Positions 2,911 through 42,211 of a DNA stretch of 42,211 bases are shown here, in pieces. The position numbers and the translations under genes are program-made. The notes under the pieces were generated by a model. The model was not told the DNA's origin. It saw only the letters and a program-made list of their open reading frames with translations, and did not search any database. This stretch comes from a virus. Within the stretch, counting starts at the first letter, position 1; each line of letters begins with the position of its first letter. The DNA lies in IMG/VR virus record IMGVR_UViG_3300033273_000507, positions 1 through 42,211 of that record. The stretch is one strand, 5' to 3'.

Positions 2911-4976
2911 TATCCAGACTCCGATTGGTTATAATGAATTGCAATGTTGCCGAGAGTTGCAGGGCCGTCAGCCGTACAAACCAACTTAGGCGCTATATGA
3001 GTTGAGTAGCCAGTCATTGTGGCCCGACCCACGCCGTATGTAGTTTGGTAGACTGTCGCCACCTCTTCAAGCAGCGTAATATCTGTAGGGTCTGTAGCCA
3101 CATACATCGTCCAGATATTGTCGCAAGTGACATCGAGGCCATAAAAGTCCTTAAATGTCGCTGGCGCAGATCCATCCAAAAACGGCATTTGCACAGTAAC
3201 CGTACAATTATCGTATTCAGTGCCGTCCTCGCCGCCCAGGGAATATAGCTTGTTACCGCTGCGGCATAGCACCTGACGTCCATCATAGGCCCACTTATTG
3301 ACGGTAAACCCTGGCTCGTATATCGACCAGGCGCTTACTCTGGATGATGGGTAATAACTAAACACATAGATGGTAGAGCCTATAGCTAACAGATAACGGC
3401 CATCTCGAGGCTCGAGGATCGCCTGGCTTATTTCTGCTTCGGCCCTGTTGTTCTTGATGCCGTCAGTTATAAGGTTGTCAATCGGGTTCCCAATATCGCC
3501 AACAAACGCAGCGTTCGATGAGTCCCTGGCTCTCAGACTTCTGATGCCGGACAGTGATAGGTAAAACACATCGTTGTCCCCAAACTCAACAACACTGTCT
3601 GGAGCAATCGTTCCAGTGTTTTGCAGAACCTGGATCTGCTGGTTTAGCGCCTCATCCGCATCCACAAACCAGATCTGAACCGCTTGTTCAGCTAAGATAG
3701 CCAAATTATCAAAATAGTTGGCGATGGCTTTTAGGTCTTCAGATCCTTTCGCGTTGTTCGCCAGGTTAATAAACCCAGCGCCCAAGTTTGCATCGTTCCA
3801 CTCGTTTGGATCGTCAACCGCAGAAAAGTGAAGCAGCGAGTCAGAAAGCGCATACATTTTGGTTTTAGCGGGGCGAACAAATCGACCAGGCGTATAACCC
3901 TGGATTGCGCTGGCCGTAGCGCCGCCATCGAGGTAGTTTTGCGCCGGAGGATCAAAGGCCGTTGTTACGTTGCCTGTTGTAGTGACAGAAACGATAAGGT
4001 TATTAGCCTGTGTGCCGGACTGTTTTGCGATGATGTTTACATATTGATTAACAGCCGTTGCTTCGTATTCTGGCGCTGAAGCAAAGTCATTGATGGCGTC
4101 AGCTAAGTTTTGCGCTGTCACCGTATGTGAGGTCTGCCAAATTACCTGACTACCGATAATAGATACGCCGTCCACTGTAATGTCTGTGACGGCATTATCA
4201 ACGCCACCACTCATATGATTTACGTTGCCGATAGTGACAGCACCGTTCACGCCATAACTGACCTGGAAACCGTTATAGGCAATACCGTGTGTTGGCGCAG
4301 TTATAGTAACCACGGCATTTACAGCAGCCGCTGTATACCCGCTTCCACCGCTATTGATTGCCTGGGCTACATTAGCAGCTGTCGTATTGTTTAACCCTGT
4401 ATGCGGGACAGGCGCTGCAAGCAGTTCAACATTGTTGACACGCAAAACACGCAGATCGTCACCAGGGTTTGCTGTGCCACCAGTTATCTCGAAAGAAGCT
4501 GTTGCTGGTGTCCCGCCAAAAGAACCAGCTGTAATCTCCACAGTTGCTCTAGCACGGCCATCGAACCAGTCAGTAATACGAGCGCCATCGTAATAATGGT
4601 AGATCCGGCCATCAGCAAACTGCGCCGCTGCATACACTAACCCATTATAAAAATCGACAGACAGAACCTCTGTCAGTTCTTCGCCGGATGGATGCTGCAA
4701 CTGGATGTAGTTAATGTTTGACGGCGTTCCTGGTGCGAAAGACACATTAGCCGGAGCGTCAGACCCAAACACATAGATCTGGCCACCAGAAGCTGCCAGG
4801 CTAAAAGTATTCGATGGGAGGTCTGCAAGCTCAACAAACGCATTGCGCTTCTCAATCTCTCCGCCTCGGTTCACATGGGCATTAGTTAGAGTGACAAGCG
4901 TACCAGGGGTTGAGGTTACGTTTGATCGCCTAGCATCCAGGCCGCCCCTAAAATCTTCGACCAGAATATACGGCAT
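2910..4976 (-). CDS. Tail nozzle / stabilisation-type protein, 688 aa
   Basis: The N-terminus (VEDFRGGLDARRS, then GTLVTLTNAHVNRGGEIEKRNAF) is the typical opening of podoviral nozzle or tail-tubular-B-like proteins, which close the tail channel. The rest is beta-rich, with aromatic propeller-like segments such as ASGGQIYVFGS and DNDVFYLSLSGIRSL. Two tandem domains of about 95 residues lie near residues 160-258 and 262-352. Both contain a pattern like 'NNVEL...HTGLNNTTAANVAQAIN', then 'YTA/YEATAV', a strand, and end in 'GGV/GGA'; they look like an inserted duplicated decoration domain. The gene follows the adaptor gene by 3 bases and ends inside the start of the GNAT-like gene. Family assignment is by pattern and synteny. 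Confidence 0.75.
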   Translation of the reverse strand: MPYILVEDFRGGLDARRSNVTSTPGTLVTLTNAHVNRGGEIEKRNAFVELADLPSNTFSLAASGGQIYVFGSDAPANVSFAPGTPSNINYIQLQHPSGEELTEVLSVDFYNGLVYAAAQFADGRIYHYYDGARITDWFDGRARATVEITAGSFGGTPATASFEITGGTANPGDDLRVLRVNNVELLAAPVPHTGLNNTTAANVAQAINSGGSGYTAAAVNAVVTITAPTHGIAYNGFQVSYGVNGAVTIGNVNHMSGGVDNAVTDITVDGVSIIGSQVIWQTSHTVTAQNLADAINDFASAPEYEATAVNQYVNIIAKQSGTQANNLIVSVTTTGNVTTAFDPPAQNYLDGGATASAIQGYTPGRFVRPAKTKMYALSDSLLHFSAVDDPNEWNDANLGAGFINLANNAKGSEDLKAIANYFDNLAILAEQAVQIWFVDADEALNQQIQVLQNTGTIAPDSVVEFGDNDVFYLSLSGIRSLRARDSSNAAFVGDIGNPIDNLITDGIKNNRAEAEISQAILEPRDGRYLLAIGSTIYVFSYYPSSRVSAWSIYEPGFTVNKWAYDGRQVLCRSGNKLYSLGGEDGTEYDNCTVTVQMPFLDGSAPATFKDFYGLDVTCDNIWTMYVATDPTDITLLEEVATVYQTTYGVGRATMTGYSTHIAPKLVCTADGPATLGNIAIHYNQSESG

Positions 4977-5696: not shown

Positions 5697-6119
5697 CTAC
5701 CCTTCTACATAAGCCTCGTTCTCTGGCGTTTCTGGGTTGTCGGCAACAAAATGACCAGCTTTTGTCCTGGCTCTTTTGCGTGGGGCCGCTTTCTTTGCAG
5801 CCTTTGGCTTTTCGAGTCCGGCTTTCCAAACAGCGTCAAAAAACTCTGGCTGGATTCTGGCTTCTTCTATTGTCTTAGGCAGTTCGCCAAATTGATTGAA
5901 CAGAGCAGCGATCTTGTGATCGCCATAAAAACGACCAAGGCGGTCACGCTCTTGTTCGCTCGTAGTGTCTTCTTTCTTAATCACTTTGATGTGACTAACA
6001 GCATCGGCCCCATGTAAGTGCTGCAAAAGCAGAATCTCTGGGACAGAAACAATAGGTTTTGGCACAACTGACCGAATATCCCCACCGATGGCCACCGTGC
6101 AACTGCAAAACTCAAACAT
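5697..6119 (-). CDS. Small head/neck-region protein, 140 aa, basic Ala/Lys tail
   Basis: The start at 6119 is fixed by a strong AGGAGG seven bases upstream. A second ATG at 6123 leads to an immediate stop. Residues 1-60 look like a small beta domain (FCSCTVAIGGDIRSVVPKP, VSVPEILLLQHLHG). A helical region follows (SEQERDRLGRFYG, then HKIAALFNQFGELP), and the C-terminal part is basic and low in complexity (KPKAAKKAAPRKRARTKAG). The gene sits between capsid and adaptor, separated from the capsid gene by a strong hairpin. I do not recognise a named family. A head-completion or decoration role is inferred from position only. Confidence 0.7.
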   Translation of the reverse strand: MFEFCSCTVAIGGDIRSVVPKPIVSVPEILLLQHLHGADAVSHIKVIKKEDTTSEQERDRLGRFYGDHKIAALFNQFGELPKTIEEARIQPEFFDAVWKAGLEKPKAAKKAAPRKRARTKAGHFVADNPETPENEAYVEG

Positions 6120-12446: not shown

Positions 12447-12826
12447 TTTGTGTCCGTCTTCTTCAGCTTGTCGAAACTTCTCATGCCGCCGATGCCCAAC
12501 ATTCCAAGCAAAAGAGGCATCATAACGCTCATGTCGGCCTGGGGGATCTCAACGCCAAACCCAGCACATATCGGGCTAATCAAAAAATTTACGGCCATAC
12601 CAAGGACAGCAACGTAGCCAGCCAGGGGACGCCAAGATGCCTGGAACCAGTTTCCCTTTGCGTCTGCTTTCAGCACCTCGATTTGCGCTAACATGGCCTC
12701 CTGGGCATGACGTTCCGACATCGTTGCTATTTCGTGGGCCAGGGCTGCCTTCTGGTCTTTATCCTCGATAAACTTATCCAGGATGCCAGTGACAGGCCCA
12801 ACAAGGCTGCCAATAATGTTCATCAT
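12443..12826 (-). CDS. Holin of the 3TM / GTA-holin type
   Basis: The 127-residue product has an N-terminal amphipathic segment (IGSLVGPVTGILDKFIED), a charged helix, and two clear hydrophobic spans (AGYVAVLGMAVNFLISPICAG and MMPLLLGMLGIGGM). It ends in a basic tail (RSFDKLKKTDTK). The layout, with a helix-rich N-terminus, the sequence NWFQASWRPLAGYV and the GMLGIGG motif, matches the Holin_3TM/GTA_holin_3TM family. It is directly upstream of the endolysin with an ATGA overlap. GAGGGG supplies the ribosome-binding site. Confidence 0.85.
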   Translation of the reverse strand: MMNIIGSLVGPVTGILDKFIEDKDQKAALAHEIATMSERHAQEAMLAQIEVLKADAKGNWFQASWRPLAGYVAVLGMAVNFLISPICAGFGVEIPQADMSVMMPLLLGMLGIGGMRSFDKLKKTDTK

Positions 12827-22684: not shown

Positions 22685-22947
22685 AAACCAACGTGATCCG
22701 ATACCGCGAATTTCCCCACGATGGCGAAGCCTGGGAAATTTTCGCGTCCGACAATATCCACAAAGCACGGCGACAGTTGGCCAGGCTTATCCGCAAGCGC
22801 CGCCAGGATGGCTGGTTTGCCGATGTTTTGAAGATGCGAAACCACGGCGGCCAATTAGTCCAGCACTGGTCACTGTGGAAGCCTGGGCATCCTCGCCTGG
22901 CGGAGTCGTATTTTATCCAGAGTGTTGAGAGACACGCCCAACAATAG
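22678..22947 (+). CDS. Small basic protein, 89 aa (islet gene 6)
   Basis: The ATG at 22678 overlaps the previous stop by 7 bases, with GGCAGGGC as a ribosome-binding site. The protein is mixed alpha/beta and basic (VIRYREFPHDGEAWEIFASD, ARRQLARLIRKRRQDGWFAD, WSLWKPGHP). The Arg/Lys helix suggests contact with nucleic acid. A GC-rich 8-bp hairpin (22953-22974) follows the stop without a T-run. No family recognised. Confidence 0.6.
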   Translation: MVKTNVIRYREFPHDGEAWEIFASDNIHKARRQLARLIRKRRQDGWFADVLKMRNHGGQLVQHWSLWKPGHPRLAESYFIQSVERHAQQ

Positions 22948-22952
22948 CCGAA

Positions 22953-22974
22953 ACGCCAGGCAATGCCCTGGCGT
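22953..22974 (+). other. Hairpin between islet genes 6 and 7
   Basis: ACGCCAGG-CAATGC-CCTGGCGT is a perfect 8-bp stem with a 6-base loop, just after the islet gene 6 stop. No T-run follows. It may stop ribosomes or RNases rather than polymerase. The leader of islet gene 7 (CGGAGTTGAACCG) begins about 50 bases on. Confidence 0.4.
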
Positions 22975-23037
22975 CATCCTGGAGCGGGTTTCCAGGGTCT
23001 GACGATGGCAGCCCACCCATCAAACGGAGTTGAACCG

Positions 23038-23691: not shown

Positions 23692-24112
23692 ATTTTCTCG
23701 GTCTGCCGCGCTTCTTAGGCTGCTGCGCTTCCATAATTTCAAAAGCAATGGCCGCATAGCCAGCAACGTCCCGCCAGTTATCCAGGCTGTTTGGATTGTG
23801 CGCGACTCTACCCAACTTCAAAATGATACCGAACGCAGCCACATCCTGGGCGGCTATGTCCTGGCCGGATCTGTTGCCCAGGTATCCGCGCAGCATGGCA
23901 GCCGTGCGGCCCATGTTTTCGCCTGGCTCGCCATACTCGCCGTTTCGCTCAATCCCGACCAAGTGCTGCGCCTCCGCCAGCATTTTTACGCGGACAGGCG
24001 GGGAATCCAATTTGGTAGAATCCAATTTGACAACATTGGTGGAATCCAATCTTTTACGTTTAGAAGGGGATTTCGTCATCGAAGAACGTGTCTTTCTTGC
24101 TACTCTTGCCAT
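23690..24112 (-). CDS. DUF6378-like phage protein, 140 aa
   Basis: I chose the ATG at 24112 because AGAGGA precedes it at good distance; other in-frame starts are at 24142 and 24079. Residues 1-45 are very basic (ARVARKTRSSMTKSPSKRKR). The rest matches the compact helical DUF6378 pattern: MLAEAQHLVGIERNGEYGEP, then GENMGRTAAMLRGYLGNRSG, and ILKLGRVAHNP with NWRDVAGYAAIAFEI. This pattern resembles a MazG/dUTPase-like helical NTP-related fold in layout, but I would not claim activity. It overlaps the upstream gene by 53 bases. It is the last gene of the replication block. Confidence 0.7.
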   Translation of the reverse strand: MARVARKTRSSMTKSPSKRKRLDSTNVVKLDSTKLDSPPVRVKMLAEAQHLVGIERNGEYGEPGENMGRTAAMLRGYLGNRSGQDIAAQDVAAFGIILKLGRVAHNPNSLDNWRDVAGYAAIAFEIMEAQQPKKRGRPRK

Positions 24113-24698
24113 CTTTTTCCTCTTTCGGTTTGATGCTCTCAATTACAGACCCTGGGAATACGTCTTTTACTGACTTGACCAGTGGGCTGTTCTCTTCCCA
24201 GTATTTTATGATCCGGCATATCTCATCGAGCGTATATGTCCGGCTCACTGATTCTGGGTCTACTAATTTGGCAACGCCGCTATCCTGGATGATCGCGTAT
24301 GGTTTCCCACCAGCGTCATCAGGGGCGATCGCGTACCAAATACGCTCATCGGCTGGCTGATGCCCATTCTTTTCGGCGTACCGTTCCAGGGCGTTCCAAC
24401 CAGCAATCATATTGTTTGCTTTTTGCACCAGGTAATTGTGGTCATCGTTGTTCGCTGCATCGTTGAGGTTTTGCCTGGCTTGCTCGAATTTCACCGCGAG
24501 ATCGGGCGGCGCTAATCGTTCCAACCTACCAATGCCCCATCGCTGTTCGAGTCTCCGTGCCACCTCATCCACGCTATCCATCGCTGCACGGACTATCGTG
24601 TATCGACTATCGCTCCACATTGCTGGCGGATACCAGGCATCCTCACCTCTCGCTTTAGGCTTTGCCTTTGTCTTGCTGTACCGTCCTTTATATCCCAT
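24060..24698 (-). CDS. Replication-block protein with SSB-type C-terminal tip, 212 aa
   Basis: GAGGTAAC lies 5 bases before the ATG at 24698. The protein has a basic Gly/Lys start (GYKGRYSKTKAKPKARGEDA), a helical middle (EVARRLEQRWGIGRLERLAP, KANNMIAGWNALERYAEKNG) and a small mixed segment (YAIIQDSGVAKL). A charged linker follows, then the very end DTFFDDEIPF. That end matches the acidic tip of bacterial SSB proteins (DDDIPF), which docks host replication and repair proteins. No OB-fold is apparent, so this looks like a different protein bearing an SSB-like tip. It is directly downstream of the candidate origin. Function unknown. Confidence 0.7.
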   Translation of the reverse strand: MGYKGRYSKTKAKPKARGEDAWYPPAMWSDSRYTIVRAAMDSVDEVARRLEQRWGIGRLERLAPPDLAVKFEQARQNLNDAANNDDHNYLVQKANNMIAGWNALERYAEKNGHQPADERIWYAIAPDDAGGKPYAIIQDSGVAKLVDPESVSRTYTLDEICRIIKYWEENSPLVKSVKDVFPGSVIESIKPKEEKDGKSSKKDTFFDDEIPF

Positions 24699-24753: not shown

Positions 24754-24812
24754 CCATACCCCGCCTGACGCCTACTTTCCGTTCAAGCGGAAGTAGTGCG
24801 TAAGGGGTATGG
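24754..24812. repeat. Nested inverted repeats (candidate origin hairpin)
   Basis: The outer arms CCATACCCC (24754-24762) and GGGGTATGG (24804-24812) are perfect 9-base complements. Inside them CTACTT(T)CCG and CGGAAGTAG (around 24772-24796) form a second stem with one bulged T and the loop TTCAAG. The inner arms are themselves copies of the TACTTCCGCC repeat. Such a double hairpin could form when strands separate and serve as a primase or Rep-type start. This is inference. Confidence 0.6.
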
Positions 24813-24966
24813 GGTACTACTTCCGCCCTACTTACCGCCTACTTCCGCCCTACTTCCGCCATTTTAGAAGCAGAGAACTATTTACTTCCGCCGTTTTTGC
24901 GAGTTCACCCCCGCTACTTCCGCCGTTTTTGGCTATTCCCCCCTGTTACTTCCGCTGGCGGAAGTG
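24773..24966. repeat. Iteron-like array (TACTTCCGCC), candidate replication origin
   Basis: Ten copies of TACTTCCGCC or a near variant are present. Four stand in direct tandem at 11-base steps (24818, 24829 with a one-base insertion, 24840, 24851). Four are at exact 32-base steps (24851, 24883, 24915, 24947). One imperfect copy starts at 24773, and inverted copies lie at 24787-24795 and 24957-24966. The last two copies face each other as ACTTCCGC-TG-GCGGAAGT. Spacing by one and three helical turns puts them on the same DNA face, as in protein-binding iterons. The array lies just after the primase-helicase and the small zinc-protein genes. Its right end is inside the coding end of the latter. 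Confidence 0.8.
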
Positions 24967-25142
24967 ATTTGCGCTGTTGGCTTTTCGCACGTTTCGCCCT
25001 GGCAGCAATCGTTGACCACCCTATGGCAAATGTGACATTGCTCATGGCCATGCACGTTGATCGGCTTCCAGGCCGACATACAGAAAGGGCATCGATTTGC
25101 CGCTATACGCCGTGCGATTTCGCCATCACCTTCTTCAATCAT
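24933..25142 (-). CDS. Small zinc-binding protein, 69 aa
   Basis: Two Cys/His pairs are suggestive of a zinc ribbon or knuckle: CPFC near residue 18 and CHIC-H near residue 36, with further cysteines in DCCQGETC. The ATG at 25142 overlaps the primase stop by 8 bases, with GGCGGAGA upstream. The tail is polar (SASGSNRGE). Its gene end carries two of the origin repeats. It may bind DNA near the origin or assist the primase-helicase. This is inferred from position and metal motif. Confidence 0.65.
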   Translation of the reverse strand: MIEEGDGEIARRIAANRCPFCMSAWKPINVHGHEQCHICHRVVNDCCQGETCEKPTAQITSASGSNRGE

Positions 25143-27312
25143 TTCTCCGCCCCCATGCTGGTTGATCGTCTGGTGTTCGGATCACGCGGATGCCTTTTGT
25201 CTTGGTCTTGCTGTCGTGAACCGTGTTTTCGATAAATCCTTGCTCCGACCAGGCGACTATGTACCCCCTGGCTGCACGTTTCGGCATCCCATATTCATTG
25301 ACAAGCCAGGCTTGTAGGCTGCGAGTCGTGTTTGTCGCCATCGCGAACGGCTCATCCGTACCCCAGCGCCTGTTGATCTCCGTGAATATCGCTTGTGTTT
25401 GGACTCGATCCAGCTTGGCTGACGCCTCGAGGATTCCATCCACTTCCATCGTGCGGTCTATCAGCAGCCCAGACTCATCGCGTATAAAAGCCCTGGTGCT
25501 GTTGTCCGCTGCGTCATTGACCTTAACAATGCCGCCCATGACACAATTACCAACACCCGCCTCGAAGCCCATCTTCTGCGCTACAACGATCTCATCGGAC
25601 TCCGGCATCTGCCATAGGCCATAGACCCACCTAGCGCCGTCTACGAGCGCTGTAGTGCCTCTAATCGCTTCCCTGGCCTGGACAGACTTACGGATGCTGA
25701 ACGTGCCTTCCTTACGCATATGGTGGGCAATCAGGACGTTCGCGCCAGCGGCCACACATAACTCACTCATCAGCGACCACCAGAATTGAGCAGCCGCCGG
25801 ATCTGTGTTGATGTCAGCTGCCGCAAATGCTTGCAGCGGGTCAATGATAACCAGGGCAATGTTGCCCATCTCTGTAAGTTGCTGCCTTACATCCGCAAAC
25901 TCTGGCGTGACGCTGTATTGCCCCATCACATTTTGGATAAACGGCATCGGGCCACCAGCATCCGGCATTGGGACTACAAATAGATTCCCCGCTGCTCTCT
26001 CACGCAAGTTGGGGCCGCTGATATTCGCGATCCGGCGGTGCATACTGTTTGCTGAGTCTTCCGCGCCCAGGAACACCACCTTGCCATTGTGAACCACCTT
26101 GCCGCCGAGCGCTGTTTCCTGGTGCATATTCTGGTCGCCGCCAGCCACCTTCATCGCTAGATCGAGCAAGATAAACGACTTGCCGAGTCCGCCGACAGCC
26201 GCCATCAGCCCAGGGACTCGCCTGGGTAATATGTTTTCGATAAGCCATTCTTGTTCTGGGGCGTCACCAGCATAGCGGTTCATTCCCCAATCAGAGATGC
26301 GTAGGGAGCGCTGTTCGGGTGGCGTACCCACGCTCCCTACGCTGGCCGAACCCTGGTCGTGATGCGGAGTTGAAAGCATCGTTTGGGTCGGTTTCTCTGA
26401 ACCAGGCACTACACCATGTAGAATCCGCAATTCGTTATTTCTAGCTCTTTTTAACTGGTAGTTGGCCTTGTATTGGAATAACTCTATCCCGCGACCATCA
26501 GACGCCAGGTCGCTGCCCCTTGCTTTTGCCTTGGCGGCAAAGGTAGGCCAGGCGTCCTCGACTAATTCCTCAACGGTTGGCAGCACACCTTTCTGCGCCC
26601 ACCAGGTTCGGATTGTGCCAAGGATCAGCTGCACCATGTAGCCCTCACGGCCATCAACAAGGTCGCCCCAACGGTCAGTTGTCGTCCCTTGTATGACAGA
26701 AGTGGACATACTTCCGTTTTCAGCGCCAATCCTGGCCATTTCCCGCAGCCAGTCAGGGCTTTCCTCGATGTCATCGCGGTGCGGCGATACAATATACTGG
26801 TTGCCAGATTTATGATTTGACGGACAAACAACCACAAAGCCGCCCTCGCCCCTGGTGTCGATCCCATCGCCCAGGGTGTTCTTGCCTGTCAATATCTCGA
26901 TGTCAGGCGGCGCTTTGTAAAAGTAGTGACGCCCACCAGATCCTGTGATCTGCTCGAGGGTGTCAGGCAAATCATCATTTGCCATTTGCAAATCGTCTAA
27001 TGTGTCCGGCCCTGGCTTGCCTGGGCCAATGTCAACATCCACAACAAATATGTTGCCGCTGATCTTGCCAGTAACAACGCCCAGGTTGTAATCGGCAAAC
27101 CGACCATCGAACCACATTTCTAATGTGTGCGTGTCAGCCTTCTTTTCCTGGTACATCTTCCAGCGGCTTGGCGCTGGGTGCTTGCCAGGGCTTGGGCAAT
27201 CCTTACCCATCTTGCAGCTGCACACCCCATCCTTGACGTAATGGACAGGGATAACGCTAAAGCCCTTTTCAAACCAAAATTTGGCCCACTCTGTTTTTGA
27301 TTGTTCTTTCAT
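25135..27312 (-). CDS. Primase-polymerase / RepA-like helicase fusion, 725 aa
   Basis: The N-terminal domain (about 1-200) is an archaeo-eukaryotic-type primase-polymerase. It has a Cys-rich stretch CSCKMGKDCPSPGKHP (31-46), strand IFVVDVDIG with metal-binding Asp92/Asp94, SGGRHYF with His129, and GIDTRGEGGFVV. The C-terminal domain is a RecA-like RepA/AAA_25 ATPase. Walker A is AAVGGLGKS (371-379). VVFLGAEDS, the Walker B strand ALVIIDPLQAF, and NVLIAHHMRKE with the sensor region follow. It should unwind and prime phage DNA. The ATG at 27312 is preferred over the longer frame to 27390, because the latter would run through the terminator hairpin and into the upstream gene. A perfect terminator lies 13 bases upstream. 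Confidence 0.88.
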   Translation of the reverse strand: MKEQSKTEWAKFWFEKGFSVIPVHYVKDGVCSCKMGKDCPSPGKHPAPSRWKMYQEKKADTHTLEMWFDGRFADYNLGVVTGKISGNIFVVDVDIGPGKPGPDTLDDLQMANDDLPDTLEQITGSGGRHYFYKAPPDIEILTGKNTLGDGIDTRGEGGFVVVCPSNHKSGNQYIVSPHRDDIEESPDWLREMARIGAENGSMSTSVIQGTTTDRWGDLVDGREGYMVQLILGTIRTWWAQKGVLPTVEELVEDAWPTFAAKAKARGSDLASDGRGIELFQYKANYQLKRARNNELRILHGVVPGSEKPTQTMLSTPHHDQGSASVGSVGTPPEQRSLRISDWGMNRYAGDAPEQEWLIENILPRRVPGLMAAVGGLGKSFILLDLAMKVAGGDQNMHQETALGGKVVHNGKVVFLGAEDSANSMHRRIANISGPNLRERAAGNLFVVPMPDAGGPMPFIQNVMGQYSVTPEFADVRQQLTEMGNIALVIIDPLQAFAAADINTDPAAAQFWWSLMSELCVAAGANVLIAHHMRKEGTFSIRKSVQAREAIRGTTALVDGARWVYGLWQMPESDEIVVAQKMGFEAGVGNCVMGGIVKVNDAADNSTRAFIRDESGLLIDRTMEVDGILEASAKLDRVQTQAIFTEINRRWGTDEPFAMATNTTRSLQAWLVNEYGMPKRAARGYIVAWSEQGFIENTVHDSKTKTKGIRVIRTPDDQPAWGRRND

Positions 27313-27364: not shown

Positions 27365-27955
27365 CTATATCTCTCCGAAGTCAACATCATCAGAGGCGGC
27401 AGCGGCAGCGACAGTTGCTGCTTCTACCTTTGGCTCAACATCGGGATTTGCATCCGCTGATAAGGCGTCAGGGCGATCAACCCATTTTACGATTTCAAAA
27501 CTAGGGATACGGCTTCCTCCCTTCCCCAGTTTTACCCTAACAGCATCGCCGATCTTGATTGCTGGGACTTGACCATTGCCAAATTTAGACTCGGCCTCGT
27601 TGTAGAGTTTCTTCACAAACTCCAAAACGCCGACCTGGCTAGAGCAAAGTTCCCGAACAGGCTCATCGCCGAACAGTTTTGTGCTGTAAAATTGCACTGA
27701 AATGCCCTGTCTATGGGCATCAGATGGCTTTGGACACTTGGTCACATCGTTACCAGGCCATTCAACCCAGTCGCGGCCACCTTGCAAATTTAACCAGCCC
27801 TGTTGAATTTGCTCGATATCGACTACGACAGGCGCAGATTCCATATCGACATTCACCAGGTCGCCATCAGGCGTTGACCGCAGCCAGCAGTTTTCTTCAA
27901 CCGAGAAGCGGACAAAAGGGCTACCGCCCCCAGAGTTTACAAAATTTAACGGCAT
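27365..27955 (-). CDS. Possible ssDNA-binding protein with acidic tail, 196 aa
   Basis: A mixed beta-rich protein. Residues about 15-60 (FVRFSVEENCWLRSTPDGDL, VDMESAPVVVDIEQIQQGWL) and about 80-160 (ISVQFYSTKLF, IKIGDAVRVKLGKG) would fit an OB-like core. The C-terminus is Ala-rich then acidic with a hydrophobic end (AASDDVDFGEI), as in phage SSBs such as T7 gp2.5. GGAG precedes the ATG at 27955. It lies between recombination genes and the primase-helicase, where an SSB would be expected. No exact family is recognised, so this is a reasoned guess. Confidence 0.65.
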   Translation of the reverse strand: MPLNFVNSGGGSPFVRFSVEENCWLRSTPDGDLVNVDMESAPVVVDIEQIQQGWLNLQGGRDWVEWPGNDVTKCPKPSDAHRQGISVQFYSTKLFGDEPVRELCSSQVGVLEFVKKLYNEAESKFGNGQVPAIKIGDAVRVKLGKGGSRIPSFEIVKWVDRPDALSADANPDVEPKVEAATVAAAAASDDVDFGEI

Positions 27956-35300: not shown

Positions 35301-38300
35301 TTCGACATTCCTGGCGACATATGCCTCAAACGCCCTGGCAAACATTTCTGTTGGTCGCGTCCAGTAATCTGGGTCTGAGTTTGTAGCAACAGCAAAGTCT
35401 TCAGCATCCTTGCGGTACTGAGTCCGGCCTACCTTTGACCTGGTGCTGCCTTCTTTCAAGCGCCGCAGCTGCTCCTCAAGCTGCACCAGTTTCTTAGTTG
35501 TCTTACCTGTCTTAGCCTCATATGCCTGGGTCTTGGCGATTTGCTGCTCGACTTCCATGATCTTCGCGGCCAGTTCAGCCTTATCAAAGAACATAGCGTT
35601 GATAAGGTTGCCCATCGCGTCAGCAACAGATTGTGGTGCGCCGTCTTGCCAGGGACGCTCATTAGATTCCATGTTAGAACGGATACGGCCAGTGATGCCA
35701 CGGCCCCACTCTTCGCCAAATTTGTCCAAAATATGGTAGTCCAAAGCATGGCCCCACTCATGGGCAAAGCTGTTTGACCGTTTCGGCATAATGACCACTG
35801 GCGCTGGGACAGCACCAACATCAGACTGTGTGGGGGCGGCTGGGCCACCCTGTTTGTTGATGTAAGCAGCCAGGTATCCGCCCCATGCTCTGCCAGGCAA
35901 AGCAAGGCCAAGGCTGTTGTCCAGGCCGATTGCGTTATACGGCAGCCCCAGGGCGTGAGTCATCCACTGAAGATTGCGGTAAGCATCGAGCAAAGCCTGG
36001 ACGCCATCGTATGGGTTGGTCTTAGGCTTCGCTATGTATTTGAACCCAAATTTGTCTGTCATCAATTTTGACAGGATGCGGAATTGCTTTTCTGGCGTGT
36101 AGTTGACAGCCAGGTTGGGGTCTTCGCCAGCATCACGGAACGCCTGTAGGAATACAGACTGTCTTAGGGTTTCTTTTTGAGCCAGTAATACTCGGCCTGA
36201 TTTTGTTCCTCTTGTGCTGCCTTCGGCTGCGTCTTCTCTGAGGATGACGGTTGCTGCGTCTGAGGTCGTTTGACCTCGCCGTAGTTGAGCATCCGGCGCG
36301 ACACTTGCTTCCAGGGTATCTTGTGATCCGGCGTTGTCATCTACTGTCCCCCTTATTTCTTCAGCCAAATTACGGATTTCATTCTCGATGGCTACGCCTC
36401 GAGAATCAATCTCTGGGTCAAACAAAATGTTTTTAACTTTGAAAACAGCCGGAACATCACCCTTCTGAACGATCATGGTGGGGGTGTAAGTCTCACCAAA
36501 GATCTTCTGAATAGGTGCGTTTATTTGCAATGCTGGCTTTGTCTTGCCGTTGGCAGTCTTTAAGTCATCAGGATAACGGTTAGCTAGATCTTCACCAATT
36601 TTTACGCTGACTCTCACGCTCTCGCCAAGAGAGGACGTTTGGATCTTAGAGTTTACACCCTCAAGACCAAGCGCACTAATCCGGCGCTGTAATTCAGCTG
36701 CAACAGATGCTCGGCTTGTCGGGTCGTAATTAAGACCGCCTGTTACTTGCCCAGCTTCTTGGGTATTTGCTGGATTGACCGCTCCAGTATCCTGGCCGCT
36801 TCCCTGGCTGCTGGTACTTTGTGCTTGTTGGCTGCTCGGCGCAACGCTGTTGCCATCGCCGCCTTCGGGGAGGAGGCTCCCTTGCCCTTCGTCTGTGCCA
36901 TCGGCCTTCCTTTCTGCTCTACGGCGAGATGCCTGGATCACATCAACTGGTGTCGTTGGATCTTCAAACAGCCCATCCGATTTTCGGTTCCCAGACTCCT
37001 CAACATAGAAGTCCAGGACATCTTTCATAAATTTTTGCGACTTAGCGCGAGTTAAGTCATCGTTATACAAAGAGCGGACAAGCGCTTCTACTATTGGGTC
37101 AGCATCGCTAAATGCGTCTTGCTGCGCGAAATAATCGCGTGGCTTGATGCCCCTGTCCCGCAAATTGCTTATTAACTTAGCAGCATCCGCTATTTGCTGC
37201 GATACGTCAAACTCTGGCCGCACATCGCCAGCAGCAATATCTGCTTTCAACTGGCTCAGTTTAGGCGCATTAGCCATCATCGCGTTACTGATAGCCTTGA
37301 TGTTGTCATCCGTGCTGTCCAGCATAATCGCAAGAGCGTCAGTATCGTTGTAAGCGCTGGCCAGGATAGCGTTCTGCATACGCAACACGCCCTCTTTAGT
37401 CAGCTGCCCATCACGGCTCATGGCGTTTTGCTCATTCGGGGCAACGACACTGGCGATAAACTGATCCACAAAAGCGCGGTTTTCCGATGAGGTCAGATCA
37501 CCACCAACGTAAGAGTTGATGATGTTCTGTGTCATGGCTCGAGCATCGCGCTGCGCTCGTTCTGTGGATGACATACTAGCAATCGATGACCTGTTAGAGC
37601 GGTCAGCAAAATCAACCAGCTGCTCGATGGTCATGTCGTCTTCTAGCTTGAAAACTAGAACTGGGTTCGGGAAATTAGCACCATCTGCACGGCCATAGTT
37701 AGCAACTGCTTGCCTGTATTCCGCCGCCTTTTCTGGGAAATTGTCATAAACTGCACGGAGCGAAAGTACGCGGCCATTGCCAGATAAAATCGTCCCATCT
37801 CTAGCGATGATCGGAGCGCCAGTGTCTGTTGTGGGGCTGTCCATCAGCATTTCCGGCATTAGGTTTGCTGCGCGGCGTTGCGCTTCAACATCGCTCTCTT
37901 TCAGTGATCTGTCTCTTGGTTGGAGGATGCCGGACGCTGCCTTGAGGTCAGATATGTCAACCACGACAGGCACAACATTTACTTTTGTTTTGCCGTCTGG
38001 TGTTGATTTTTGCTTCGCTATTGGTGATCCAGTCGGCGAAACATTGACAGACAGGATCTCCTGGCCTGGCTCCGGCGCTTGCGGGTTCACCTTTGGCGCT
38101 TCGGCTGTTGGTTGTTCAACAATACGCGGCTCAACTGGTGGCTGCTCAACAACAGGCTGTTCAGCGACAGGCTGTTCAACAATACGCGGTTCAACTGGTG
38201 GCTGCTCAACAGGCTGTCCCGCGACAGGCTGTTCAACAATACGCGGCTCAACTGGCGGCTGTTCAGCGACAGGCTGTTCAGCGACAGGCTGTTCAACAAT

Positions 38301-40202
38301 ACGCGGTTCAACTGGTGGCTGTTCAGCGACAGGCTGTTCGGCTGGCGGCTGGTCAAACGGATTGGTTGTCTCCGTTGTCTCTGCTGGCTTGATTGTTGTT
38401 TCTGGATCTACAAAACCATATGCCTGAGAGTTCGGGTTCAACAAGTCTCGCGCAACTGTTGAAGCTGCTTGCTCAGTGGCTGCTTGCTCGAGGGTGTTAA
38501 GTTCGTTTTCAATAGCCGTGTCTTGTGCTGCCCTGATGTTCCCAGGCAAACTTGTGGCTATCTCGATAGCGCCTATCGGCCCTTCGGCAACACCTTCTAG
38601 GATGATTTCACCTGGAGAAAACGTATCACGGAAGCCAAATGTTTTTTCACCTTGCTGGGCGGTCAGTTCACCGCCAGCGCCAAACAACATTTGTTGTCCA
38701 GTTTCGGCAAAAGTTCTGCCTGTAATATTAGCCGCGCTACCGCCTTTAGTAATACCCGAAGCAATAAATTTACCTGACAAGCCCATAGACAAGGTGTCAA
38801 ATATTGCAATCGGGATGCCTCTAATTGTGCCTCGCTCTCTCGCTCTGCTCCAAAACTCTGGGTCATTGACCAGTTCCATCAAGGCTTTTTCATCTTGAGG
38901 GTCTACGCCAGAAGAAATTATCTCTTCGTTTAGGACTGATGTGTATTCAGTCCCAAAAGACATAACACCCGCAGCCCCCGCAGCAGGGACGGGTTGGCCC
39001 ATCAAAGTGCCGATAACCAAGGTAGCTATTTGAGGCGTGGACATTACCAGTGACTCACCAGTAACGCTTAAAGCAGCTATTGGATTGTTGCCGATAGCTT
39101 TAATCGAATCCCACACGCCTTTGGCTTCCGAGATTTCTCTCAAACCATCCTGTATTTCTTGGGGTGCTTTGGGGAATATTCTCTCTAACTCAGAAAATCT
39201 TTTAATAAAATCTTCTGGCTTGCGCAGACCTGTATCGAGCAACAAGGTGTTCCAGTTTTGGAACATCCGGCCAAACCCACGGCTCGCAAAGTTGTTGCTT
39301 GCCTGGTAATTGTTGGCCTTTTGTATAGCGTAAGCAGCCTGTGCTTCACTTACTGGCCCCATGTCAGTCTGACTGTTAACCTGGAACCAGCTTCCATCAT
39401 CAAGCTGGAACACGTTAGTAACGCTTGGGTTCTTTATGTCAAACAGCGCTGCTTTTTCCTGGGTTGGCCCTGGTTGCGCCAATATTCTGTCAATCCGATC
39501 ACGCAATGCCTGGTCTTGAGCAGACGCTGATAGATCCTCGATCTCACTTTTACGCAGTTCGGCGATTGTGTTTGAGCGCTGGACAGCAGCGCTTACAGCC
39601 TCCTGCTCAGATCCAAAGCGCGGTATGTCTTCCAGTTTGATCGTGCCATTCTGTATTAGCTTTTGAGTAAGCTGCGCTGCGGCCTCTGGCGACATAGGTA
39701 CGCCCTGGATGATCGTTGGGATATTAAAGAACACACCAGGCATAGGCATACCTAGCGCTGTGCCAGGCACAGTCGCTGTGCGCTCTGTAGCGATGTTCCC
39801 ATCATCAGTGATGACCAGTGGACGATTAACGTCAATCGGATAACCAGCTGGGTCTACCTGGCCTCTATCCAATGATTGCTGACCAGCAGCCAAGGCTTGC
39901 TGGATCTCGGCATCAGATGACGCCGCTCGATCAGCCGGAGACATACTAAACGGATCTCCGGCAAGGGCTTGTAATGGGTCTGCCGGAGGCGTGACGGCTG
40001 ACGGAAGCGGGGAGGAAACGCCTTCGTCATCTACAGTAGGAGGCTCCTGCCCATCAGCCCCCAGCAGCTGGTTCTGTGAAGATTGGAAAGCGTTTGCACC
40101 GCTACTAAATGCGTTGTTGCTTGGCATCCCCTGGTCAAAGGGGTTGCTGTTCTTCACATCTTCTGTTTCTGATCCGAAACCAACATCAAACGGATTGTCC
40201 AT
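32322..40202 (-). CDS. Giant polyvalent ejection protein, 2626 aa (ParB/DdrB-like and HEWGH metallopeptidase domains)
   Basis: Domains in order: N-terminal region (1-600) with membrane-prone segments near 375-480. A Pro/Glu/Val repeat linker follows (about 618-702, see separate entry). A ParB/DdrB-like domain comes next (about 715-990, with RDGTILSGNGRVLSLRAV and DRSNRSSIASMS). Then an LPD1-type region leads to a zinc peptidase, HEWGH at 1481-1485, with a candidate third ligand Glu1619 in RPTEMFARAFEAY. A long helical C-terminal half (about 1690-2600) has membrane-like stretches (GTQMLPAFLTLYGGHLLV, MIVMMASAPGLGPYGG). Such polyvalent proteins of phages are packaged and injected; DdrB-like parts are linked to protection from host nucleases. 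It likely takes the place of T7 gp16-like ejection proteins. The function is inferred from domains. Confidence 0.85.
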   Translation of the reverse strand: MDNPFDVGFGSETEDVKNSNPFDQGMPSNNAFSSGANAFQSSQNQLLGADGQEPPTVDDEGVSSPLPSAVTPPADPLQALAGDPFSMSPADRAASSDAEIQQALAAGQQSLDRGQVDPAGYPIDVNRPLVITDDGNIATERTATVPGTALGMPMPGVFFNIPTIIQGVPMSPEAAAQLTQKLIQNGTIKLEDIPRFGSEQEAVSAAVQRSNTIAELRKSEIEDLSASAQDQALRDRIDRILAQPGPTQEKAALFDIKNPSVTNVFQLDDGSWFQVNSQTDMGPVSEAQAAYAIQKANNYQASNNFASRGFGRMFQNWNTLLLDTGLRKPEDFIKRFSELERIFPKAPQEIQDGLREISEAKGVWDSIKAIGNNPIAALSVTGESLVMSTPQIATLVIGTLMGQPVPAAGAAGVMSFGTEYTSVLNEEIISSGVDPQDEKALMELVNDPEFWSRARERGTIRGIPIAIFDTLSMGLSGKFIASGITKGGSAANITGRTFAETGQQMLFGAGGELTAQQGEKTFGFRDTFSPGEIILEGVAEGPIGAIEIATSLPGNIRAAQDTAIENELNTLEQAATEQAASTVARDLLNPNSQAYGFVDPETTIKPAETTETTNPFDQPPAEQPVAEQPPVEPRIVEQPVAEQPVAEQPPVEPRIVEQPVAGQPVEQPPVEPRIVEQPVAEQPVVEQPPVEPRIVEQPTAEAPKVNPQAPEPGQEILSVNVSPTGSPIAKQKSTPDGKTKVNVVPVVVDISDLKAASGILQPRDRSLKESDVEAQRRAANLMPEMLMDSPTTDTGAPIIARDGTILSGNGRVLSLRAVYDNFPEKAAEYRQAVANYGRADGANFPNPVLVFKLEDDMTIEQLVDFADRSNRSSIASMSSTERAQRDARAMTQNIINSYVGGDLTSSENRAFVDQFIASVVAPNEQNAMSRDGQLTKEGVLRMQNAILASAYNDTDALAIMLDSTDDNIKAISNAMMANAPKLSQLKADIAAGDVRPEFDVSQQIADAAKLISNLRDRGIKPRDYFAQQDAFSDADPIVEALVRSLYNDDLTRAKSQKFMKDVLDFYVEESGNRKSDGLFEDPTTPVDVIQASRRRAERKADGTDEGQGSLLPEGGDGNSVAPSSQQAQSTSSQGSGQDTGAVNPANTQEAGQVTGGLNYDPTSRASVAAELQRRISALGLEGVNSKIQTSSLGESVRVSVKIGEDLANRYPDDLKTANGKTKPALQINAPIQKIFGETYTPTMIVQKGDVPAVFKVKNILFDPEIDSRGVAIENEIRNLAEEIRGTVDDNAGSQDTLEASVAPDAQLRRGQTTSDAATVILREDAAEGSTRGTKSGRVLLAQKETLRQSVFLQAFRDAGEDPNLAVNYTPEKQFRILSKLMTDKFGFKYIAKPKTNPYDGVQALLDAYRNLQWMTHALGLPYNAIGLDNSLGLALPGRAWGGYLAAYINKQGGPAAPTQSDVGAVPAPVVIMPKRSNSFAHEWGHALDYHILDKFGEEWGRGITGRIRSNMESNERPWQDGAPQSVADAMGNLINAMFFDKAELAAKIMEVEQQIAKTQAYEAKTGKTTKKLVQLEEQLRRLKEGSTRSKVGRTQYRKDAEDFAVATNSDPDYWTRPTEMFARAFEAYVARNVENRGGTTEFITMESEAYEMTLEQVEGSDIRLAMTYPNEADRNNIFLAMDRLMEALRTEAFESGPSAAPGDYDLIDARLDFAAQIDPNNQPEDARGWVENEKRAWRAAQTQAKRERPTRFPDASSWRKGAINVEDMVLNRIFYAKRGILFTLARRYKGNVRANNIIEDIISRVATDPGGTKMRVTVEGGTFEEATRRESRRFAIRFKQILDRYDIDQLSEAQLQQLRLILTADPDAQADAASGADPLITSAAGEIRTKILQPMYDYMRRSGYDIGYLADGSYMPRMLDSVLALSDKQKFLGNGEGKRGAIGLYADVIYENDLGSLDTTNEEQLTELLRKARKSQGYMNDEQLELLAEAQALIRQRNKLDPDENEAEISQINDELALLHEQLYEEVRMPFAEAAANDWYTRIGQQVATDPGAHSVQGSFTKKRKLPKEADTYMVDFYLDPIESLNQYIPAVTRKIEYERRFGQSLVPPGSKLRDKNNPGSRRDYLDYLLEVRGVEAGIDTQDLQQLRQIVRKITGTDNVSADYMGKKALDYIHVFGTMALLPRAVLSSIAEPLTAGVTTGSARKGLKTFVQVFDEALAIVSTDAKRRTLFYRQLANVLGVIDDPSVGEVVANRLGGTLQEDPKLNARLGRFFVRTKLQGLTNAQRRSTMRTGLQYFAEIAAEYQDSNTSAQGKQQIREIFRDFGVNDTNLDQFTAWMAEQRNGDYKLPSIDEMLEKNGEMTDMGQILSVAIGRFIDQTIQDPKSVDRPLYAEHPLGRMVYGIQSFMAAFSRNVLLGSLNKLRREKQQRGYGSMGLMFGTQMLPAFLTLYGGHLLVSTVREMLLNPDKLREEREKDNLEFYLLFIAFQRAGLLGRIDPIWNSLYSTRYQSDLSNMVVGASASYYLKALQRMAGVLPYFGNNSENTVAAEYQATIGFWDLAVNTMIVMMASAPGLGPYGGTAAGLFAGVATSPRTKHSVVREFIEATTGEEYYPGRGGRKKKEAKVF
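38106..38352 (-). repeat. Coding tandem repeat (P-V-E-P-R-I-V-E-Q-P units)
   Basis: About four to five near-identical units of roughly 50-65 bases encode variants of EQPPVEPRIVEQPVAEQP, about 85 residues in the polyvalent protein. The DNA copies are almost exact (CTGTTCAACAATACGCG recurs four times), so unit number can change by recombination. They form an extended linker between the N-terminal part and the ParB-like domain. Confidence 0.85.
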
Positions 40203-41834: not shown

Positions 41835-42211
41835 CTAACCGTTATACAGCCCATAGTTCGTGCCAACCTGGCCACCAGCCATAAGAAGCTGTGCCATTGG
41901 GCTGTACGCTTTCTGGTTTGCAGCTTCCAATTCGGACTGAAGAACGCTGCTATTGCCCTTCATAAAGTTGCCCATCATTTGCCCAACAGCCGCGCTGTTG
42001 TTCATTTGTGGCGAAATAGTGCTTTGCAGAAATGAGCCAAATGAATTTAGATCTGCAAGTTTCTGGTTTTGGTCTTTGCCAAACGCTGTTGCGGCAGCAA
42101 GTTCTGCCTGGTTCGTGTCTTGTATCAGAGATGGTGCGCCGCGTTGAGCGGTTGTTGATACTACGTTAGCGTCTGTCGCAGCATCAAACAAAGCAGCCAA
42201 ACGAGCAGCCT
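41835..42211 (-). CDS. Internal virion protein, C-terminal part (gene begins at 222)
   Basis: A frame open from the right edge to the stop at 41835. The product includes QRGAPSLIQDTNQAELAAAT, SFGSFLQSTISPQMNNSAAV and ends VGTNYGLYNG. It is Ala/Gln/Ser/Asn-rich and helical with no enzymatic motif. Joined over the 8-base overlap to 1-222 it makes a 196-residue protein. A TTG at 42200 could be read as a start, but the continuation across the join with a good ATG at 222 is more convincing. A podoviral internal protein by position. Confidence 0.75.
   Translation of the reverse strand, partial: AARLAALFDAATDANVVSTTAQRGAPSLIQDTNQAELAAATAFGKDQNQKLADLNSFGSFLQSTISPQMNNSAAVGQMMGNFMKGNSSVLQSELEAANQKAYSPMAQLLMAGGQVGTNYGLYNG
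42204..42211. repeat. 8-base terminal overlap (copy of bases 1-8)
   Basis: AGCAGCCT stands at both ends of the window. Removing one copy and joining the ends restores one reading frame across the junction. It is more likely the overlap of a circular assembly than a biological terminal repeat. Confidence 0.6.

Follow-up and report, generated by a model that had tools for sequence, protein, structure and literature searches.

What is the function of the dense array of short repeats at positions 24754-24966 of a 42,211-bp IMG/VR virus record, between the gene for a PrimPol-RepA-helicase fusion protein and the gene for a 212-residue protein (p212)? The whole record was analysed at its full length of 42,211 bp and is referred to below as the window. 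As judged from sequence comparison, the array can be assigned, with a probability of roughly 0.8, as the putative replication origin of the PrimPol-RepA/p212 phage family, which would be used together with the family's own PrimPol-RepA-type initiator. The origin reading proposed in the first-pass annotation was well supported by position, conservation, helical phasing of the repeats, a covarying hairpin and close precedents.

The window carries integrase, large terminase, portal-like and tail-fibre genes, and nearly all genes of the genome lie on the minus strand. Both record ends (1-8 and 42204-42211) read AGCAGCCT, and upon merging of this 8-bp overlap an open frame appeared uninterrupted across the join; the genome is therefore probably circular or circularly permuted. 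The cumulative GC skew showed a steady fall along the genome, attributable to the location of the genes on one strand. The skew switch near 24.9 kb that had been suggested as a check on the origin was not observed, the GC skew at coding third positions, calculated per gene, being 0.00 to the left and -0.01 to the right of the array. Given that nearly all genes lie on one strand and that there is little skew, this measure was uninformative rather than refuting. The elements of the array and the neighbouring genes are as follows:

24754-24966, minus strand (that of the flanking genes): whole element, putative replication origin with iterons, C-rich core and nested hairpin; repeats confirmed and place conserved
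24947-24966, no strand assigned: palindrome of two opposed, abutting iterons, TACTTCCGCTGGCGGAAGTG, which opens the array and overlaps the 3' end of the 69-aa gene
24851-24956, minus strand: iterons spaced by 32 bp (starts 24851, 24883, 24915 and 24947)
24818-24860, minus strand: iterons spaced by 11 bp (starts 24818, 24829 (degenerate), 24840 and 24851)
24801-24817, minus strand: invariant C-rich core, GTACCCCATACCCCTTA, after the last direct iteron and before the inverted iteron 31-32 bp on
24754-24812, minus strand: nested hairpin, supported by covariation over 33 loci and by folding as DNA (z -3.15)
25135-27312, minus strand: gene for a 725-aa protein with PrimPol, an RSF1010 RepA-like helicase (AAA_25) and a predicted C-terminal winged helix; probable initiator
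24933-25142, minus strand: gene for a zinc-ribbon-like protein of 69 aa, which separates the PrimPol gene from the array and is not conserved along with the latter
24060-24698, minus strand: gene for p212 (212 aa), directly downstream of the array in relatives; conserved, with the SSB-like tip DDEIPF

The exact iteron TACTTCCGC (GCGGAAGTA on the minus strand) was found seven times, both strands counted, and all copies fall within 24787-24955, with none elsewhere in the window. Together with the variant CACTTCCGC (24958) and two degenerate copies carrying one change each, TACTTTCCG (24773) and TACTTACCGCC (24829), they make up ten copies, and the count and the spacings described in the first-pass annotation (four copies 11 bp apart and four 32 bp apart) were reproduced exactly. 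The inverted copies that it had placed at both ends were located at 24786-24795 and 24957-24966. The left one indeed serves as the inner stem of a nested inverted repeat, in which CTACTTtCCG (24772-24781) pairs with CGGAAGTAG (24788-24796), the inner stem including the inverted iteron, inside an outer stem formed by CCATACCCC (24754-24762) and GGGGTATGG (24804-24812). In every 32-bp unit of 24851-24956, read on the minus strand, an A-tract immediately precedes the next iteron. In 100 dinucleotide shuffles of the window, no 9-mer was present more than five times within 220 nt, and in 66 of the shuffles the highest count was two, as against seven in the real sequence, which is thus far above chance. 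Such a density was otherwise seen only in the coding repeat of a 2626-aa gene; this repeat, at 38113-38355, has units of 15, 30 and 60 bp. Rfam gave no match within 24754-24966, and a DNA similarity search revealed no cultured phage matching the array region. Neither an AT-rich unwinding region nor DnaA boxes adjoining the array were noticed by eye; in some PrimPol replicons, a stem-loop takes the place of these elements (PMC4234260).

PrimPol relatives (47-95% identity) were collected from viral contigs, giving 60 loci with both PrimPol and p212, the window included and duplicate gaps removed; the counts refer to distinct gap sequences, not to independent events, and the IMG/VR loci are fragments. 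The array and its C-rich core occupied the same spot in 59 of the 60 loci, and the recurrence of the repeat at the same place in relatives, named beforehand as a check, was thereby borne out. The strict core pattern lay inside the gap in 57 loci, and L028 and L034 carry the variant CTCCCRTACCC. In L097, a divergent lineage and the last of the 60, the core ACCCCCCCATACCCCCC is found farther downstream (12700-12790), where p212 and a 280-aa gene precede it and the repeats at its flanks are GGACATGTTGTC rather than the usual iterons; from its sequence, this arrangement may represent an origin that has been moved or re-equipped.

On the gene strand, the array begins with the opposed-iteron palindrome (equivalent in L002, L003 and L005, where it reads TACTTCCGCMAGCGGAAGTR), followed by direct iterons at intervals of about 32 bp, by iterons at intervals of 10-11 or 20-21 bp and by the C-rich core; then come an inverted iteron, 31-32 bp past the final direct copy, and the arm that closes the hairpin. 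A- or T-tracts precede many of the direct iterons spaced by about 32 bp (A-tract in 38 of 66 units). Several 32-bp spacers also hold a short palindrome of the GGGG-N6-CCCC type, GGGGTGAACACCCC (e.g., L006 3838-3910 and L007 8461-8533), which is perhaps a site for a second protein. The phase coherence of 153 neighbour spacings from non-redundant loci was maximal at 10.6 bp (R = 0.85), demonstrating that neighbouring iterons are whole helical turns apart and that they face one side of the helix. Coding does not account for the spacing, since 10, 11, 31 and 32 are not multiples of 3. Nor can the conservation of the array be ascribed to the small ORFs that traverse it in some loci: these spacings break the frame, and the window has no such ORF.

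A set of 2.9 million viral contigs was then scanned in reverse without the use of any protein, once with the iteron spacing only and once with the core only. Three iterons at a spacing of 31-33 bp were found in 10 stretches, all 10 beside a PrimPol relative, and the core AAGTAAACCCCCRTACCCC alone in 23 stretches, all 23 inside such an array. Six of these 23 were already known members, while each of the 17 new ones had phased iterons round the core and adjoined p212. As both scans returned only the PrimPol/p212 locus, the element is specific to that replication locus. Integrated relatives were also sought in 84,980 genomes, among which no real relative was found.

An alternative is that the element is a packaging (pac) site for the terminase small subunit, or a partition site, given that short-repeat arrays can serve in both roles and that the TerS gene lies about 3.5 kb from the array. 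In the relatives, however, the array follows the replication gene and not TerS, and the proteins scanned included none recognisable as ParA/ParB-like. Moreover, iterons combined with a primase-type hairpin fit an origin better, and we regard a packaging or partition role as very improbable.

In the hairpin, the six bases before the inverted iteron differ by locus (ACGCAC, ATACAT, TACTAC, AGGTGT, GGCGTT and others), and a matching complement is present downstream in each. Over 33 loci, the mean best arm pairing was 4.61, compared with 3.36 ± 0.14 when the arms were swapped between loci (0 of 5000 permutations; arms from loci with a different 5' arm averaged 3.27), in a permutation test without correction for relatedness. 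The hairpin adjoining the core is therefore supported by covariation. Its precise fold varies between clades. In its covariation it corresponds to the pRN1 type of large downstream stem-loop, which is conserved by structure.

In the window, the strand of the core pairs with a segment located past the inverted iteron, and the hairpin strand folded better than shuffled sequences both as DNA and as RNA (z -3.62 for the latter). The RNA fold is compatible with an alternative in which the array, lying in the intergenic gap directly upstream of p212 and in the same orientation, would be an operator or leader governing transcription or translation of p212 and later genes, with a phage regulator bound to the phased repeats and the hairpin acting in the mRNA. 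No promoter-like site was found in the array region, however, and the last array element and p212 are separated by anything from about 45 to 320 nt, depending on the locus. In L097 the core comes after p212 and one more gene, not before p212. Ten phased copies also exceed most operators, which hold fewer than that number. Regulation of p212 is thus an improbable role for the array.

The gene upstream of the array encodes a protein suited to serve an origin. Its ORF as listed begins at 27390, whereas homology starts from an ATG with its first base at 27312. Prim-Pol and AAA_25 were detected in 15 of 15 aligned initiators, and a profile search matched residues 343-615 to RSF1010 RepA (1g8y, E 1.2e-9), identifying a RepA helicase homologue. 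A Foldseek search with a weak model of the 725-aa protein, poor overall (pTM 0.35), returned RSF1010 RepA (1olo, E 1.9e-7) and pRN1 ORF904 PrimPol (E 7e-7), as well as NrS-1 polymerase. In the same weak model, residues 620-710 were predicted to adopt a winged-helix-like H-H-H-b-b arrangement (pLDDT roughly 55-85). Multiple short direct repeats lie next to the gene for this probable initiator, as in iteron-type origins. A second conserved protein of the replication operon (27365-27955, minus strand, 196 aa) has the acidic tail SDDVDFGEI and variants of it; it gave no family match and is possibly a phage single-strand binding protein.

A hairpin downstream of a rep gene would also be expected if the site were a double-strand origin of the rolling-circle type, with nicking by a Rep endonuclease, and Joshua et al. 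argued for this mode in pRN1, as reported in PMC4234260. The initiator here, however, consists of PrimPol and AAA_25 only, with neither an HUH nor a Rep nicking endonuclease domain, and origins of this kind do not usually take the form of phased iterons. Rolling-circle nicking accordingly appears extremely improbable at this site.

The origin assignment was further examined against known systems. The origin of pRN1 is a stem-loop just downstream of a PrimPol-helicase-winged-helix gene (PMC4234260). Like pRN1 with its ORF904, and like the stem-loops proposed for BIP-1 and BPP-1 (PMC4234260), the present element has a large stem-loop after its own initiator gene, kept in structure and variable in sequence, and it is paired, as in pRN1, with a primase-polymerase/helicase initiator, although the winged helix is here only predicted. 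It differs from pRN1, which has no iterons and an SF3 helicase, in its 5-10 phased iterons, its invariant C-rich core and its RepA-like (RecA-fold) helicase.

RSF1010 combines iterons with ssi hairpins (PMC4234260). With the oriV of this IncQ plasmid, used by RepA, RepB' and RepC, the element shares a RepA-type hexameric helicase, an AEP primase, and iterons accompanied by inverted-repeat hairpins (ssiA/ssiB). The iterons of RSF1010 are 20-bp tandem repeats; such repeats and two separate ssi hairpins were both absent here, where the primase and helicase are fused, iterons of about 10 bp are spaced by 11 or 32 bp, and one composite hairpin is accompanied by one palindrome. No RepC homologue or other match to a replication-initiator family was found among the genes scanned around the array. 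The satellite phage P4 alpha protein (ori/crr, type I iterons) is similarly a multifunctional primase-helicase whose winged helix binds short origin repeats, the corresponding domain being predicted in our case. P4 uses a Toprim primase and two sites, in contrast to the PrimPol, single site and conserved hairpin and core of the present family.

In SCCmec, iterons are located downstream of the helicase operon, and in SaPI/SCCmec the preferred priming start lies in the origin (PMC7581432). The element resembles those of SaPI and SCCmec (Cch2, CCPol-MP; PMC7581432) in its short iterons directly downstream of a helicase operon, whereas the helicase family and the iterons are unrelated, and the nested hairpin with its invariant C-run core has no comparable counterpart in those systems. 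A similar domain arrangement is found in the PrimQH-type AEP proteins of mobile elements (Kazlauskas et al., 2018; PMC5862659), in each of which a primase domain, a RepA-family helicase and a C-terminal WH are united. In the parts of that paper dealing with these proteins, the WH of the related PolpTN2-like family is suggested to recognise the origin, and no origin sequence is given for the PrimQH type.

Among cultured phages, the Rhizobium phage RHph_Y3_1 (MN988490.1, L099) has a helicase of 38% identity, with a Toprim-like primase part (weak match). The gap after its helicase gene (5700-6010) is filled with eight CGTTCCCA/TGGGAACG copies and hairpins (z -3.8 and -5.9), is unannotated and, by analogy, is likely the origin of that phage. 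The repeat-plus-hairpin design thus seems tied to the RepA-type helicase beyond the PrimPol/p212 family. No comparable array was found after gp5 of Wolbachia phage WO, whose helicase is related. Taken as an origin, the array is a previously undescribed variant of the known PrimPol/RSF1010/P4-type origins.

Comparison among the 60 loci revealed two layers within the array. The iteron words differ in concert between lineages (GCGGAAGTA, GCGAAAGTA, CCGGAGGTA, CCGGTGGGT and GCGGGTGGT). GCGGAAGTR or GCGAAAGTR is found in the majority of loci and ACGGAAGTR in L061 and in most copies of L092, and the iterons have jointly changed in L055 (CCGGAGGTA), L058 (CCGGTGGGT), L091 (CCGGTGGTC) and L095 (GCGGGTGGT). 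The core CCCC(C)RTACCCC, in contrast, remains constant while the iterons turn over. The concerted change is the pattern expected of a binding site tracking its protein, and the fixed core points to a different, constant partner.

As for the iteron-binding protein, the first-pass annotation had named the fusion protein or the small zinc protein. The fusion protein stays the best candidate, and the odds that the iterons are bound by its C-terminal domain, a winged helix in the model, may be put at slightly below even. Distance covariation of the iterons against PrimPol and p212 gave several weak PrimPol peaks, none decisive, and singled out no binder. The pair L058 and L095, with flanks of about 90% DNA identity and near-same initiators, carries different iterons (L058 about 3990-4070 and the equivalent gap of L095), although their predicted winged helices are one residue apart (T to R, near the wing). 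This pair is a poor fit to that domain alone setting the specificity.

In a variant of the origin assignment, the iterons would be bound by p212 or another factor, and PrimPol-RepA would recognise only the invariant core and the hairpin. This is consistent with the adjacency of p212 to the array in the checked matches, where the genes between PrimPol and the array vary, with the turnover of iterons beside a constant core, with the L058/L095 pair, and with L097, in which the core has moved behind another gene and acquired different flanking repeats. On the other hand, p212 has no recognisable DNA-binding fold and covaries with the iterons no better than PrimPol does. Precedent also favours the initiator, as the P4 alpha winged helix binds origin repeats and the DNA-binding domain at the C terminus of pRN1 ORF904 is a winged helix (PMC4234260). 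Binding by p212 or another factor is a possibility to be taken seriously, if not the one we would choose.

The zinc protein is an unlikely binder, because its place is taken by an unrelated gene or by none in relatives with the same iterons. The two copies noted within the end of its gene do overlap it, but such an overlap arises because any gene preceding the array can run into the opening palindrome; accordingly, several unrelated proteins encoded there end in TSASGS-type tails.

The remaining conserved neighbour, p212, had no significant match to a Pfam or PHROG family and none by fold; a weak model was mainly helical with no OB fold, and none of the cultured phages has the protein. Its homologues share 34 to 95% identity, and all members terminate in DDEIPF (24060-24122) or a near variant such as NDTIPF, DDLIPF or DDDLPF. 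The C-terminal tip of bacterial SSB is DDDIPF (PMC5872125), and by this resemblance p212 may contact host SSB-binding proteins. A tentative and, as a whole, rather doubtful synthesis would be an origin of two layers: the iterons, together with the protein that binds them, would be freely exchanged from one phage lineage to the next, whereas the fixed CCCCC-RTA-CCCC and the hairpin would constitute a sequence-specific PrimPol priming site, and p212 would be a new origin protein whose SSB-like tail leads to the host replisome. A template-specific PrimPol has precedent in NrS-1 polymerase, which requires an 8-nt template signal (PMC7102993).

In the reaction sequence that we propose for the origin, initiator molecules would occupy the iterons along one face of the helix. 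The contact would most likely be made by the fusion protein's C-terminal winged helix, with p212 or another factor as the alternative, and the phased A-tracts would aid wrapping of the DNA. The RepA-like ring helicase would then be loaded and open the duplex at the core, and PrimPol would start the first primer either on the C-rich strand thus exposed or on the hairpin; on a C-rich strand, an archaeo-eukaryotic primase would begin with G. Host enzymes would come next, possibly recruited via the SSB-like tail of p212.

The origins of phages with PrimPol-helicase fusions are mostly unmapped; the priming site of pRN1 could not be pinned down, and the 8-nt signal of NrS-1 has not been tied to a proven origin. 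The present family offers about 60 natural variants of one compact putative origin, among which the core is constant, the repeats change and the hairpin covaries; with them, the part that binds the initiator, the priming signal and the change of repeat specificity become directly testable. It also presents p212, with its conserved SSB-like tail and no known family, as a candidate replication protein, and the core/iteron pattern finds such origins in metagenomes.

Apart from the array and its neighbours, a type II hammerhead ribozyme was detected at 22946-23017 on the plus strand, with 48.8 bits for Rfam RF02276, whose gathering score is 37, and it overlaps and precedes a plus-strand ORF in a genome that is otherwise minus-strand.
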